Positions 3,858 through 61,278 of a DNA stretch of 64,000 nucleotides are shown here, in pieces. Both the position numbers and the translations under genes were made by a program. The stretch is from Hyphomonadaceae bacterium (GTDB taxonomy: Bacteria > Pseudomonadota > Alphaproteobacteria > Caulobacterales > Hyphomonadaceae): assembly GCA_024742355.1 (NCBI GenBank), contig JANSYM010000007.1, forward strand, positions 62,001 to 126,000, written 5' to 3'. Each line of letters starts with the position of its first letter. Positions within the stretch are counted from its first letter, which is position 1. The notes beneath the pieces were generated by a model. That model was not told where the DNA came from. It did not search any database and saw only the letters and a program-made list of their open reading frames with translations.

Positions 3858-4334
3858 CTAAGCCTCTTCTGGCCGCAAGTCCTTTGAGACATTGTCGAGC
3901 ACGGCATTGACGAAATTCGCTTCGGTCTTGTCGAAGAAATCATGTGCCAGGGAGACATATTCATCCAGCAGGATGCGCCGCGACAGTTCCTGATGCGCGA
4001 CCAGTTCGGCGACGGCCGCCCGCAGGATGGACCGCGTCGTGGAATCCAGGCGAGACAGTTTCCAGCCCTTTGAGAGTCGCGCCAGAATGGCTTTGTCGAC
4101 GGTGGCCTGATGCTCGATCGTGGCATTGACGATGGCTTTGAACAGATCCGGATCGGCTTCCTCAACCGGGTCCTCGTCCGGGCCGAGGCCAAGACGATCA
4201 TCCATCAGGTCACGGATGGCTGACTTACCGCTCTGGCCGGTCTGCTCCATCTGATAAAGCGCCTGCACAGCCGCCAGCCGTGCGCCGGCGCGTCGGGCCC
4301 GAATGACCTCAAATGGAAGTTTCTGTTCGCTCAT
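3858..4334 (-). CDS. nusB: Transcription antitermination factor NusB
   Basis: NusB binds the boxA RNA element with NusE (S10) and supports antitermination of rRNA operons. The 158-residue protein has the all-helical NusB pattern: ARRAGARLAAVQALYQMEQT at the N terminus, LDSTTRSILRAAVAEL in the middle and LLDEYVSLAHDFFDKTEANF followed by VNAVLDNVSKDLR at the C terminus. In related genomes nusB directly follows ribH. Here the pair is separated by a GIY-YIG gene and two hairpin repeats, which gives a gap of about 510 bases. Confidence 0.95.
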   Translation of the reverse strand: MSEQKLPFEVIRARRAGARLAAVQALYQMEQTGQSGKSAIRDLMDDRLGLGPDEDPVEEADPDLFKAIVNATIEHQATVDKAILARLSKGWKLSRLDSTTRSILRAAVAELVAHQELSRRILLDEYVSLAHDFFDKTEANFVNAVLDNVSKDLRPEEA

Positions 4335-4416
4335 CGCGCGTCCTTGCCACCGGTGGCCTCAAAAAGCCATGCCCTTTTGCCGGATTGAACTGCGAATAAT
4401 CAACATCGGGCTCGCT

Positions 4417-4442
4417 ATCCTTCGACTTCGCTCAGGATGAGC
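4417..4442 (+). repeat. REP-like hairpin, left arm flanking the GIY-YIG gene
   Basis: This 26-nt repeat is the exact reverse complement of 4803-4828. Its ends (ATCCT / AGGAT, extended by GCT / AGC) form a stem around the 12-nt loop TCGACTTCGCTC. The stop codon of the GIY-YIG gene (4432-4434) lies inside it, so the repeat encodes the end of that protein. Further copies occur at 58772-58867 and 61160-61278. Confidence 0.9.
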
Positions 4443-4788
4443 GTGGTCGTTTGGTCCCCGTCAATTTGAAGAATTTGCTTTTCGTGGGATCGGCGGGCGC
4501 TGTTTTTGATTTGGCCAGAGACTTGAGGGTTTCCAGGTCACCCCGGATGTAGGCTTCCTTCTTTGCCCGGCTCCATCCTTTCAACCGGCGCTCGGCGGCA
4601 ACCATGTCTTCTGGATCTTCAAAGTCCTCGCTCCAGACCAGTTCGACCGGGCGGCGCCTAAATGTGTAGGCTTTGGGGTCCAATCCTTCATTGTGCGCGT
4701 GCACGCGATTCATCACGTCATCTCCGCGATGACTCCCCACATAGTACGCTCCGTTGGCACAGCGCAGGATGTAGACGAAAAAGTGCAT
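4432..4788 (-). CDS. Single-domain GIY-YIG nuclease (YhbQ/UPF0213-like)
   Basis: The 118-residue protein has the whole GIY-YIG catalytic signature: FVYILRCANGAYYVG at residues 3-17 (the GIY and YIG tyrosines), the catalytic Arg in NRVHAHN and the metal-binding Glu in MVAAERRLKGWSR. It is therefore predicted to be an active DNA nuclease of the small stand-alone type, whose role is unsettled. The C-terminal tail is Lys/Pro-rich (TAPADPTKSKFFKLTGTKRP). I chose the ATG at 4786-4788. A longer frame to 4887 exists, but its extra 33 residues are a translation of the flanking repeat and of the ribH 3' end. Two identical inverted 26-nt hairpins frame the gene, and it interrupts the usual ribH-nusB junction. 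This suggests a later insertion. Confidence 0.9.
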   Translation of the reverse strand: MHFFVYILRCANGAYYVGSHRGDDVMNRVHAHNEGLDPKAYTFRRRPVELVWSEDFEDPEDMVAAERRLKGWSRAKKEAYIRGDLETLKSLAKSKTAPADPTKSKFFKLTGTKRPRSS

Positions 4789-4802
4789 CCAGGCACAATA
4801 CA

Positions 4803-4828
4803 GCTCATCCTGAGCGAAGTCGAAGGAT
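4803..4828 (+). repeat. REP-like hairpin, right arm flanking the GIY-YIG gene
   Basis: This is an exact inverted copy of 4417-4442, 14 bases upstream of the GIY-YIG start codon and 16 bases beyond the ribH stop. The stem is GCT-ATCCT paired with AGGAT-AGC (with small bulges) around the loop GAGCGAAGTCGA. It sits where the leader of the nuclease mRNA would be, so the hairpin could affect its expression. That is inference. Confidence 0.9.
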
Positions 4829-4844
4829 GCAGCGGGGCGGTGGC

Positions 4845-5279
4845 TTACCGAACGAACTTCTTCCGAAGCTTCAGCATTTCCAGGCATGCGATTGCAGCGT
4901 CCTTGCCTTTATTCTTCTGTTTCCGCTCAGCTCGCGCAAGCGCCTGGGCTTCGTTTTCGACCGTGACGATGCCGTATCCAATCGCCAGGCGACGGTCTGT
5001 GGTCAGGAACATAAGGCCCTTGGCACTCTCACCGCAGACATAGTCATAATGCGTGGTCTCGCCGCGAATGACGCAGCCAAGCGCGATATAGCCGTCATAT
5101 TTGGCGCTGTCGGCAGCCATGGCGATGGCGCCTGGGACTTCGAATGCGCCCGGCACCATGATGGTCTCGATCTCACACTCCTCACCAGACGCATCCAGCG
5201 CTTCGCGCGCGCCTTTCTCCAGCTCTTCAGAGATGTGCGCGTAATAGGGGGAATTCACAATCAGAATGCGGTGCGGCAT
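4845..5279 (-). CDS. ribH: 6,7-dimethyl-8-ribityllumazine synthase
   Basis: RibH condenses 5-amino-6-ribitylaminouracil with 3,4-dihydroxy-2-butanone 4-phosphate to lumazine, the penultimate step of riboflavin synthesis. The 144-residue protein shows the family landmarks: ILIVNSPYYAHISEEL, VPGAFEVPGAI (substrate pocket), GYIALGCVIRGETTHYDYV with the catalytic His region, and a conserved C-terminal helix. I used the ATG at 5277-5279 (MPHRILIVNS), since the longer frame runs into ribB. The gene begins 4 bases after the ribB stop, so translational coupling is likely. Confidence 0.95.
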   Translation of the reverse strand: MPHRILIVNSPYYAHISEELEKGAREALDASGEECEIETIMVPGAFEVPGAIAMAADSAKYDGYIALGCVIRGETTHYDYVCGESAKGLMFLTTDRRLAIGYGIVTVENEAQALARAERKQKNKGKDAAIACLEMLKLRKKFVR

Positions 5280-5283
5280 CGGT

Positions 5284-6408
5284 TTAGTCCTTATCAGAGA
5301 GCGGGCGCCAGCCTTCAATGGACAGCCCATAGCCATCCAGGCCCGCAACCCGGGTCGGTTCGGTGTCAGAGAGGTAGATCATCTTGCGAACGCCGAGTTC
5401 GCGCAGAATCTGCGCACCGACGCCATATTCGCGCAGCGGTGCGTGGGTGTCGCTCGGTTCAGATGTTTTCATGCCCAGCCGCTCAGCCAGCGCATTCGGG
5501 CGCATCGTGTTCACAAACACCACCACGCCTGGTTCATCCGCATCCGCAATGATTTTCATCGCCCGCTCGACCAGACCTTCACGAGGCCCCTGCTCGCCGA
5601 GAATATCGGCCAGAACATCTGTGCGGTGGACGCGGACAATCGTCGTACTGTCAGGCTCGATGCCGCCATGAACGATGGCGATGTGCTCGCTATTATCCAG
5701 CGCGTTGCGGAAGATGACGGTCTTGAAGCCATTGCCATAAGCGCTTTCGAGCGGTGCTTCGACACGGCGCTCGAGATAGCGATCATTCTTGCGGCGATAT
5801 TCGATGAGATCGGCAATCGTGCCAATCTTGAGCCCGTGCAGCTGCGCGAAGGAGACGAGCTCTGGCAAGCGCGCCATGCTGCCATCATCATTCATGATCT
5901 CGCAGATCACGCCGGCGGGATAGAGTCCGGCCATGCGTGAAATGTCGACGGCCGCCTCCGTATGCCCGGCGCGCACCAGCGTGCCGCCATCCTTGGCGAT
6001 CAGCGGGAAGACGTGACCGGGGGAGACAATATCGGCGGCGTCGCACAAAGGATCGATCGCGACCTGGACGGTGTGGCTGCGGTCATGGGCAGAAATACCG
6101 GTGGTGACGCCTTCAGCAGCCTCAATCGAAACGGTGAAGGCCGTGCCCATGCTTTCGCGATTTTCCCGCGCCATCATGTCGAGATTGAGCGCACGTCCGC
6201 GTTCGCCGGTCATGGCAAGGCAGATCAGGCCACGACCGAACCTGGCCATGAAATTGATCGCTTCCGGCGTGGCAAAATTCGCCGGGATGATCAGATCGCC
6301 TTCATTCTCGCGATCCTCTGCATCGACAAGAATGTACATCTTGCCATTGCGGGCATCCTCGATGATCTCATCAATGCTGGAAATAGCAGCGGAAAAGTCT
6401 TCAGCCAT
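5284..6408 (-). CDS. ribB: 3,4-dihydroxy-2-butanone-4-phosphate synthase with degenerate GTP cyclohydrolase II-like domain (RibBX type)
   Basis: Residues 1-205 are a complete DHBP synthase: DAEDRENEGDLIIPA (acidic metal-binding loop), GRGLICLAM, DPLCDAADIVSPGHVFPL and GGTLVRAGHTEAAVD. It makes the four-carbon unit of riboflavin from ribulose 5-phosphate. Residues 210-374 follow the RibA (GTP cyclohydrolase II) fold but lack the zinc cysteines. Where RibA has a C-x10-C-x-C cluster, this protein reads VHRTDVLADILGEQGPREGL with no Cys. The second domain is thus predicted to be unable to open GTP, as known for RibBX proteins of other alphaproteobacteria. The ATG at 6406-6408 overlaps the end of ribE by 8 bases. 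Confidence 0.93.
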   Translation of the reverse strand: MAEDFSAAISSIDEIIEDARNGKMYILVDAEDRENEGDLIIPANFATPEAINFMARFGRGLICLAMTGERGRALNLDMMARENRESMGTAFTVSIEAAEGVTTGISAHDRSHTVQVAIDPLCDAADIVSPGHVFPLIAKDGGTLVRAGHTEAAVDISRMAGLYPAGVICEIMNDDGSMARLPELVSFAQLHGLKIGTIADLIEYRRKNDRYLERRVEAPLESAYGNGFKTVIFRNALDNSEHIAIVHGGIEPDSTTIVRVHRTDVLADILGEQGPREGLVERAMKIIADADEPGVVVFVNTMRPNALAERLGMKTSEPSDTHAPLREYGVGAQILRELGVRKMIYLSDTEPTRVAGLDGYGLSIEGWRPLSDKD

Positions 6409-36919: not shown

Positions 36920-36948
36920 TTGACAAGCGCACACACCTGTAGCATCTA
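36920..36948 (+). promoter_or_regulatory. Probable promoter of the cobalamin riboswitch-btuB operon
   Basis: TTGACA (36920-36925) and CATCTA (36943-36948) are separated by 17 bases. The expected start of transcription near 36955 fits the 5' edge of the riboswitch fold. The hexamers are good but unproven. Confidence 0.5.
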
Positions 36949-36956
36949 GCGCCCCA

Positions 36957-37120
36957 GATGGTGCCGCTCGAGAGAGTGGCTAAGAGGGAAGCCGGTTCAA
37001 ATCCGGCGCTGTACCCGCAACTGTCAGCCAGGAGCAACCGGCCACACAGCCACTGAGGAAATCCTTGGGAAGGCGGCCGGAAGCGAAGATTGGTGAGCCA
37101 GGAGACCTGCCATCGCGTCG
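36957..37120 (+). promoter_or_regulatory. Cobalamin (AdoCbl) riboswitch
   Basis: The conserved elements occur in order: AGAGGGAAGCCGGTTC, the paired CCGGCGCTGTACCCGCAACTG stretch, AGCCAGGAGCAACCGGCCAC, GGGAAGGCGGCCGG, and the distal GGTGAGCCAGGAGACCTGCC. It lies 170 bases ahead of btuB in a 394-bp gap, and should shut down the downstream genes when cobalamin is plentiful. The gap after it (37121-37288) would hold the expression platform; GAGAGGGTTTTCCTC near the btuB start may take part, but I cannot settle the switch. Confidence 0.96.
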
Positions 37121-37288
37121 TTCGTCCGGAGACCGGGAAGAGTCTCAGCGGTCGGGAAGGTTTTGAAGACCTCTCCTTTGAAACGGCAGCAATCTGGCCT
37201 GGCCGCTCGCGCAGTCTGTCTGTGAGGCCATTGTGTCGTTTTCAGTGCGCCATTTTCCGGGCGGCATGGCGCTGAGAGGGTTTTCCTC

Positions 37289-58771: not shown

Positions 58772-58867
58772 GGCCCTCATCCTGAGCGAAGTCGAAGGAT
58801 AAAGGGCCGGGCTTCCTGGAGCTTGTCCAAAGCCCGCCTCGTCCTTCGACTTCGCTCAGGATGAGGC
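58772..58867. repeat. BIME-like element: two inverted REP hairpins after the nitroreductase gene
   Basis: The first hairpin (58772-58808) has outer stem GGCCCT/AGGGCC and inner stem ATCCT/AGGAT around GAGCGAAGTCGA. The second (58836-58867) has a 10-bp stem GCCTCGTCCT/AGGATGAGGC around TCGACTTCGCTC. They are the same repeat in opposite orientation. Between them a third small hairpin GGGCTT/AAGCCC is present. The core is identical to the repeats around the GIY-YIG gene. Confidence 0.92.
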
Positions 58868-61159: not shown

Positions 61160-61278
61160 GGCCCTCATCCTGATCGAAGCCTGCCCTCGACCCGATCGAG
61201 GGTCGAAGGATAAAGGGCCGTGCTTCCGGAAACTCGCGTTGCGCCCGCCTCGTCCTTCGACTTCGCTCAGGATGAGGC
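61160..61278. repeat. BIME-like element after xthA, with an enlarged first hairpin
   Basis: It has the same layout as 58772-58867. The first hairpin (61160-61219) has outer stem GGCCCT/AGGGCC and inner stem ATCCT/AGGAT, but its loop carries about 22 extra bases, including the palindrome CCCTCGA...TCGAGGG. The second hairpin (61247-61278) has the same 10-bp stem GCCTCGTCCT/AGGATGAGGC and the usual loop. The spacer also shares bases with the other copy. Confidence 0.9.

Follow-up and report, generated by a model that had tools for sequence, protein, structure and literature searches.

Small GIY-YIG nucleases with repeated genomic targets are reportedly represented by the Ssn family, which Chenal et al. 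are said to have described in Nat Commun in 2025 as site-specific single-strand DNA nucleases with target repeats in the genome. The Ssn enzymes are reportedly small proteins with many homologues of different specificities, and a repeated genomic sequence is said to be their cognate partner. The family reportedly cleaves only single-stranded DNA and does so site-specifically; the Neisseria repeat is reportedly of the dRS3/CGTC type, and the role of the enzyme is said to lie in tuning natural transformation.

In anatomy, the systems closest to the unit described here are the RAYT/REPtrons. According to the available excerpts of PMC3733652, they too have a small enzyme gene inside inverted REPs, gene-less pairs elsewhere and lineage-specific hairpin sets. 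The same excerpts describe CGTC REPs as palindromes with AT-starting stems of 8-9 bp and loops of 4-5 nt, which are mostly alphaproteobacterial, occur mostly as inverted pairs and are not associated with transposase genes; Neisseria CGTC-1 is dRS3 (PMC3733652). REPINs, as the accessible portion of PMC3116915 presents them, are likewise paired inverted hairpins that form a short non-autonomous unit. The available part of a 2025 REP survey (PMC12306157) contains no words that start with nuclease, RAYT or Ssn, and that of a GIY-YIG phylogenomic analysis (PMC1564403) none that start with palindrom. Among the matches listed for the open-licence literature, the passages available contained no description joining GIY-YIG enzymes to REPs, REPINs, RAYTs or palindromes.

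The window analysed here is a 64,000-nucleotide stretch of contig JANSYM010000007.1 from a Hyphomonadaceae bacterium. It contains a small GIY-YIG nuclease gene between ribH and nusB, bracketed by inverted copies of a hairpin. Like Ssn, this gene combines a small GIY-YIG protein with a repeated genomic sequence, here a putative cognate target; in contrast to what is reported for Ssn, the hairpin is of the bulged TGAG/TCGA form, and the window proteins make up a clade of their own. The evidence for a mobile unit, from empty sites, deletion derivatives and REPIN-like pairs, comes from the present analysis. We regard Ssn as probably the closest precedent and the window family as probably a cousin of it, not a categorically new system. 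Given the reported Ssn family, the claim of an earlier sequence-only reading of this DNA, that nothing of the kind had been described, is probably too strong. Compared with RAYT/REPtrons as excerpted (PMC3733652), the gene encodes a GIY-YIG rather than an HUH/Y1 enzyme, and the conserved letters flank the core instead of forming a GTAG foot; compared with REPINs in the accessible text (PMC3116915), the partner enzyme proposed here is a GIY-YIG nuclease and not a RAYT. We consider it fairly probable that the unit is a minimal REP-like element, mobile or formerly mobile, in which a single-domain GIY-YIG gene is bracketed by its own recognition hairpins.

The GIY-YIG gene and its hairpins

The features of the window that bear on this reading are as follows.

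4845..5279, minus strand: ribH, the upstream neighbour (Pfam DMRL synthase; start taken at MPHRIL...)
4803..4828, minus strand: upstream hairpin copy, 26-nt exact inverted repeat, 14 nt 5' of the ATG
4432..4788, minus strand: gene for a GIY-YIG nuclease (Pfam PF01541), 118 codons and a stop
4417..4442, minus strand: downstream hairpin copy, 26-nt exact inverted repeat, which supplies the stop TGA
4398..4838, minus strand: inserted unit (gene and hairpins), approximate limits set by eye, in a 513-nt spacer (seven closest relatives: 68-80 nt)
3858..4334, minus strand: nusB, the downstream neighbour (Pfam NusB)
58775..58866, no strand assigned: gene-less paired hairpin, REPIN-like, a perfect pair with arms at 58775-58799 and 58842-58866
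61163..61277, no strand assigned: second paired hairpin, one arm degenerate

The gene likely starts at the ATG at 4788-4786 and stops at the TGA at 4434-4432; start codons, like the control ORFs used below, were assigned by simple scripts. Its product matches PF01541 at 51.2 bits (cut-off 22.6, E 1.5e-13), and GIY-YIG is its sole Pfam domain. The sequence-only reading had placed a GIY-YIG gene between ribH and nusB, flanked by exact inverted 26-nt copies of which the left holds the stop codon and the right lies 14 bases from the ATG, and each of these points was confirmed. Y6, Y16, G18, R28, H32 and E66 are invariant among 16 close relatives of the protein. We take these Y, YxG, R, H and E positions to be the catalytic residues of GIY-YIG enzymes, and together with the PF01541 match they place the protein in the GIY-YIG superfamily.

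The AlphaFold model of the protein has a mean pLDDT of 79.5. Its nearest folds in a Foldseek search are UPF0213 structures 1zg2 and 1ywl (E 2e-5 and 1e-3, with modest TM-scores), followed by Slx1. The same two entries, UPF0213 proteins BH0048 and EF2693 (PDB 1zg2, 1ywl), are the best solved relatives by sequence (E 4e-15 and 1e-13); alike in sequence and predicted fold, they are entered as hypothetical proteins. No NCBIfam family and no family among the PADLOC models matched the protein up to E 1, and with no PADLOC match a reading as a defence system was dropped. Viral contigs hold 15 weak relatives. A plasmid or phage vehicle is without support, as matches were found in 7 of 72,556 plasmid and 8 of 50,697 phage records, all below 60% identity. 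In Sphingomonadales and Betaproteobacteria, five own-clade GIY-YIG frames (L189, L204, L210, L216 and L219, the last reaching the end of its contig) extend over 363-534 codons and are perhaps fusions with a further domain.

The hairpin core TGAGCGAAGTCGA, with up to one mismatch allowed, occurs in five copies in the window against 0.12 expected. The 3.46-Mb home genome holds 38 copies of the core and none of the reversed pattern. Twenty-two of the 38 form 11 inverted pairs with a spacing of 48-64 nt and a single relative orientation; the pair that brackets the gene, its members 389 nt apart, is the only one in the genome in the opposite orientation. Because of this opposite orientation, a derivation of the gene-less home-genome pairs from the gene unit by simple deletion is unsupported. 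An ORF at 4662-5552 (plus strand) and other spurious ORFs through the hairpin encode HPERSRR-like peptides, which are likely an annotation artefact wherever the repeat is common. Elsewhere in the window, a cobalamin riboswitch lies at 36942-37127 (plus strand, 129.9 bits).

The repeat had also been said to recur in the window as paired hairpins. The pairing stands, perfect at 58775-58866 and partly degenerate at 61163-61277; the word hairpin needs qualification, as the folds are weak. As single strands, the gene-flanking copies reach only -5.0 to -6.6 kcal/mol, with z between -0.9 and -2.2, and one of them, at 4411-4445, favours a different fold. In the pair at 58775-58866, the arms scarcely fold at all (-1.7 and -2.5 kcal/mol, z near 0). 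Folding is strong in a long-core relative (-20 kcal/mol, z -4.6), where a GA bulge separates the inner from the outer stem. The hairpin search pattern consisted of TGAG and then C or G, the core, G or C and then TCGAA, and three outer pairs. For covariation, the search was anchored on the core only and not on the stem, and yielded 254 motif matches, nested ones included, at 91 of 102 genes; these gave 178 stem pairs. The three stem positions outside the anchor pair in 146, 152 and 135 of the 178, against 109, 90 and 87 expected. The fourth position pairs in 96 of 178 against 85 expected, and further positions are not far above expectation. Stem changes are compensatory, for example from ATCC/GGAT to ATGG/CCAT; TGAG and TCGA are constant, as the anchor demands.

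Hairpin type and nuclease clade

Coupling between gene and hairpin was measured by a flank score, defined as the highest-scoring inverted match of one flank of a gene with the other, with cut-offs of 13 and 15. Among 86 GIY-YIG genes of 61 related genomes, 54 score at least 13 and 48 at least 15. A score of 13 is reached by none of 28 nusB controls and by 14 of 1500 intervals drawn at random from the window, the three highest of which are the gene element itself. The wider own-clade set consists of 80 loci, the best of at least 530 matches in genome records, and thus leans to closer relatives. At these best 80 of at least 530, a flank score of at least 15 was found for 53 of the 80 own-clade genes versus 3 of 406 control ORFs from the same loci, a TGAG/TCGA hairpin within 220 bp for 70/80 versus 18/406, and an inverted hairpin on both sides for 36/80 versus 1/406; the remaining 10 of the 80 have no such hairpin nearby. 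An even class sample of 190 Alphaproteobacteria includes 22 genes of at least 100 bits, of which 21 were analysed, the 22nd being the window's own gene. The hairpin lies near 15 of these 21 own-clade genes, on both sides of seven, and is absent nearby from six; it was found at none of the nine weaker-scoring GIY-YIG genes looked at, of 15. The enrichment of the hairpin beside GIY-YIG genes, proposed earlier as a check on the arrangement, is therefore seen both at the best 80 of at least 530 loci and in the class sample. L003 and L036 are one gene, so that L003 was omitted from the gene counts, and a gene fragment in G025 (L110) was kept in the flank, hairpin and AT-stem counts and left out of the tree. 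At L041 (~1850-2956, G010:C29), there is a break in the downstream hairpin, and behind it lies an ORF that, by its appearance, we take to be an IS110-type transposase; this is possibly an insertion sequence targeting the hairpin.

A second clade of small GIY-YIG proteins in the related genomes forms its own branch in the tree (support 100). There, TGAG/TCGA hairpins lie near 18 of 22 own-clade genes and 2 of 64 other-clade genes. Palindromes with AT-starting stems show the converse, with 35 of 64 other-clade genes having one nearby (20 of them on both sides) and 0 of 22 own-clade genes; at genus control genes they were found in 3 of 70 cases. The AT-stem test required a stem of 8-9 bp starting with AT and a loop of 4-5 nt, and also allowed a loop of 3 nt and one mismatch. 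By the description in the excerpts of PMC3733652, the palindromes beside the other clade (35/64) are of the CGTC REP type, and the window clade differs in this respect, with none at its 22 genes in related genomes. Loci L055, L057, L058, L061, L065, L103, L104, L124, L131 and L318 are other-clade genes with AT-stem palindromes on both sides. At the wider own-clade loci (the best 80 of at least 530), such palindromes occur at 10 of 80 (both sides in three) versus 34 of 406 controls (both sides in none), so that the double dissociation is clean in the related genomes only.

Five genomes (G004, G005, G017, G047 and G106) carry two window-clade genes each, with a different hairpin at each gene. 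In the paralogues of G004, G005 and G017, each hairpin matches that of the protein's nearest relatives in other hosts, so that hairpin type tracks the protein more closely than the host. Such paralogue pairs within one genome argue against host phylogeny as what determines hairpin type, although L101 also carries a second upstream hairpin of the other stem type. On the tree, hairpin types are more clustered than in any of 500 shuffles, a result that may partly reflect relatedness because the tree is a quick one built on few columns, with 52 of 115 inner branches open and 19 of the 64 other-clade genes included. The home genome's other small GIY-YIG gene (L002, C13:348775-348996; gene at ~1501-1773 within the locus G000:C13:347275-350496) lies between two CCCACGG...CCGTGGG palindromes. 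This palindrome has 23 copies in the home genome, and with L002 it constitutes a second enzyme-palindrome set there.

Copy number follows the presence of the gene in part. Across the genus, the median number of matches to TGAGCNNNGTCGA is 51 in the 11 genomes that hold a close relative of the gene versus 19.5 in the 18 that do not (p 0.0027, kinship uncorrected), and the reversed control gives 1-8 per genome on both strands. In the class sample, at least 10 hairpin copies were found in 14 of 19 genomes with the gene versus 14 of 171 without (p 5.6e-10), and among genomes of at least 2.3 Mb in 14 of 18 versus 14 of 86 (p 8.2e-7); both values are uncorrected for kinship, and some gene absences may be misses, as up to 25 first-look candidates per genome were scored. 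A further 18 gene-bearing genomes hold 42-494 copies in 15 cases and 2, 5 and 11 in the remaining three, with a control of 0-2. The expectation that the repeat would be commoner in genomes with the gene is thus upheld at 10 or more copies, but several gene-less genomes are nonetheless rich in it. Within the genus, 34-63 matches were counted in G002, G020, G026, G025 and G016, all of which lack an intact close relative of the gene; of these, G020 and G025 retain gene remnants between hairpins. In some genomes, then, the repeats have outlasted the gene or arrived before it.

Occupied, empty and deleted sites

The ribH-nusB locus was recovered in 28 of 29 genus genomes. The unit is present in two of the 28, the home genome (G000) and G028, with a 513-nt spacer, and absent from 26, in which the spacer measures 68-80 nt in seven close relatives, 88-92 nt in two and 0-5 nt in seventeen. 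These 26 gene-less loci bear out the sequence-only reading in its assertion that ribH and nusB are normally adjacent.

A second site lies between genes that we take to be acyl-CoA synthetase-like and aminotransferase-like, and was recovered in 20 of 29 genomes. G005 carries a full unit of 491 nt there. G020 has 197 nt comprising both hairpins and the last 31 codons of the gene (E 3e-10 against few sequences only), and G012 has 169 nt comprising both hairpins and approximately codons 17-31 (E 4e-5, likewise against few sequences only). G004, G014, G016 and G017 have 114-131 nt that include an apparent hairpin remnant, checked in G004. The site measures 41 nt in G018 and is empty, at 6-11 nt, in nine genomes; in three of the 20, the upstream gene was not found. 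No target duplication was evident by eye at either site, the ends of the unit being approximate.

The gene-less pair at 58775-58866 is missing from the equivalent spacer in G008, G024, G011, G003 and G015. Ten of 27 loci were looked at for this spacer: the home genome, G028, these five empty spacers, two with other neighbours and one not parsed. In G028 (L267), a CCTGCG-type palindrome pair occupies the spacer that in the home genome holds the TGAG/TCGA pair, so that the same spacer accommodates two palindrome families; the gene preceding it is presumably nitroreductase-like. Terminal inverted repeats and non-autonomous deletion derivatives, which are features of MITEs and insertion sequences, are both present in this family. 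The site comparisons read as patterns of insertion and internal deletion, and they suggest that the unit has moved.

Proposed mechanism and alternatives

Gene and hairpin are coupled, the coupling is specific to the clade, the unit is present at some sites and absent at others, and its deletion derivatives keep their hairpins. From these sequence patterns we infer recognition and cleavage of the hairpin, a preference for single strands, copying and transposition. In the recognised hairpin, a short outer stem would be followed by conserved TGAG and TCGA strands that enclose a variable core; the long-core forms have a GA bulge. The nuclease would most likely recognise its own hairpin in single-stranded DNA, either on the lagging strand or in incoming DNA, and may cut it in the TGAG/TCGA region. 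Repair or recombination of the cut could then copy hairpins and sometimes the whole gene unit. A hydrolytic nuclease alone does not join DNA, and the copying step would therefore need host repair. The REPIN-like gene-less inverted pairs and the internally deleted units would be non-autonomous dependants. Beyond this locus, we lean on balance towards the broader view that REP enzymes include a second, HUH-independent class, formed by small GIY-YIG nucleases. For the CGTC REPs, the other clade would supply the missing enzyme, and the bulged TGAG/TCGA hairpins would have the window clade as their partner, each clade spreading its own hairpins and cassettes through single-strand hairpin cutting and repair.

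The main rival is a domesticated or regulatory role, in which the nuclease would cut incoming single-stranded DNA at the repeats and tune transformation or recombination, the repeats being under selection and their spread a by-product. The conservation of the unit suits such a maintained function. Between the window gene and its counterpart in G028, pN is 0.097 and pS 0.78 (saturated), giving a pN/pS of ~0.12; dN/dS between L038 and L040 is 0.08, and the neighbouring nusB and ribH have pS values of 0.53 and 0.59. All 52 hairpin bases are identical between G000 and G028 (26/26 in each copy), compared with 46 of 82 positions in the 3' spacer and 52 of 115 third codon positions. These values point to purifying selection on the protein and to strict conservation of the hairpins, and gene conversion among copies could add to the hairpin identity. 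The reported Ssn precedent in Neisseria favours a regulatory role as well. However, the patchy presence of the unit (2/28), its internally deleted copies and its remnants resemble mobile DNA, as do the different clade-hairpin sets within one genome, and we consider a domesticated or regulatory role rather unlikely as the explanation.

The hairpins could instead be moved by another enzyme, a RAYT or some other transposase, with the GIY-YIG gene as a passenger between copies. RAYTs provide the precedent for REPs, and the RAYT-type (HUH/Y1) profile PF01797 has matches in 9 of 61 genomes searched. It has none in the home genome, however, where a RAYT as mover is accordingly unsupported and the GIY-YIG gene stands in the RAYT's place. 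A passenger gene also poorly explains the double dissociation, the paralogues with their own hairpins and the enrichment across many lineages, and we judge this alternative highly improbable. The sequence-only reading had recognised a RAYT-like arrangement with a GIY-YIG enzyme instead, and this genomic side of the reading gains support here from the enrichment, the empty sites, the copy numbers and the lack of PF01797 matches in the home genome.

The GIY-YIG fold is a homing-nuclease fold, and the presence or absence of the unit at defined spacers would suit a free-standing homing endonuclease whose gene copies itself into cognate intergenic sites via double-strand cleavage. Against this, the unit occurs at different, unrelated sites, each with a hairpin of one kind, dozens of copies are gene-less, and homing has no need of genome-wide hairpins, so that this alternative is less credible still. 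The least probable alternative, ordinary terminators or mRNA-stabilising elements placed by chance around a small gene, can point to one weak terminator-like match over the upstream hairpin (no more than shuffles give, with 1.6 expected) and to some spacers that hold gene-less pairs only, but hairpin sequence tracks protein clade, no Rfam family matches the locus at gathering score, and the equal flanking of unrelated small genes that it predicts was checked and not seen (1 of 406 control ORFs bracketed by inverted hairpins, at the best 80 own-clade loci out of at least 530).

For the reading that we prefer, a REP-like element with a GIY-YIG nuclease as its enzyme, the specificity between clade and hairpin points to nucleases of this kind as the enzyme partners of abundant alphaproteobacterial palindromes, and adds a further hairpin family, TGAG/TCGA, with its own enzyme clade. 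It also makes the origin of the palindromes directly testable, through defined protein-hairpin pairs with mismatched pairs from the same genome as negative controls. If this reading is true, REP-type mobile families do not depend on transesterases alone and can also be sustained by a hydrolytic nuclease.
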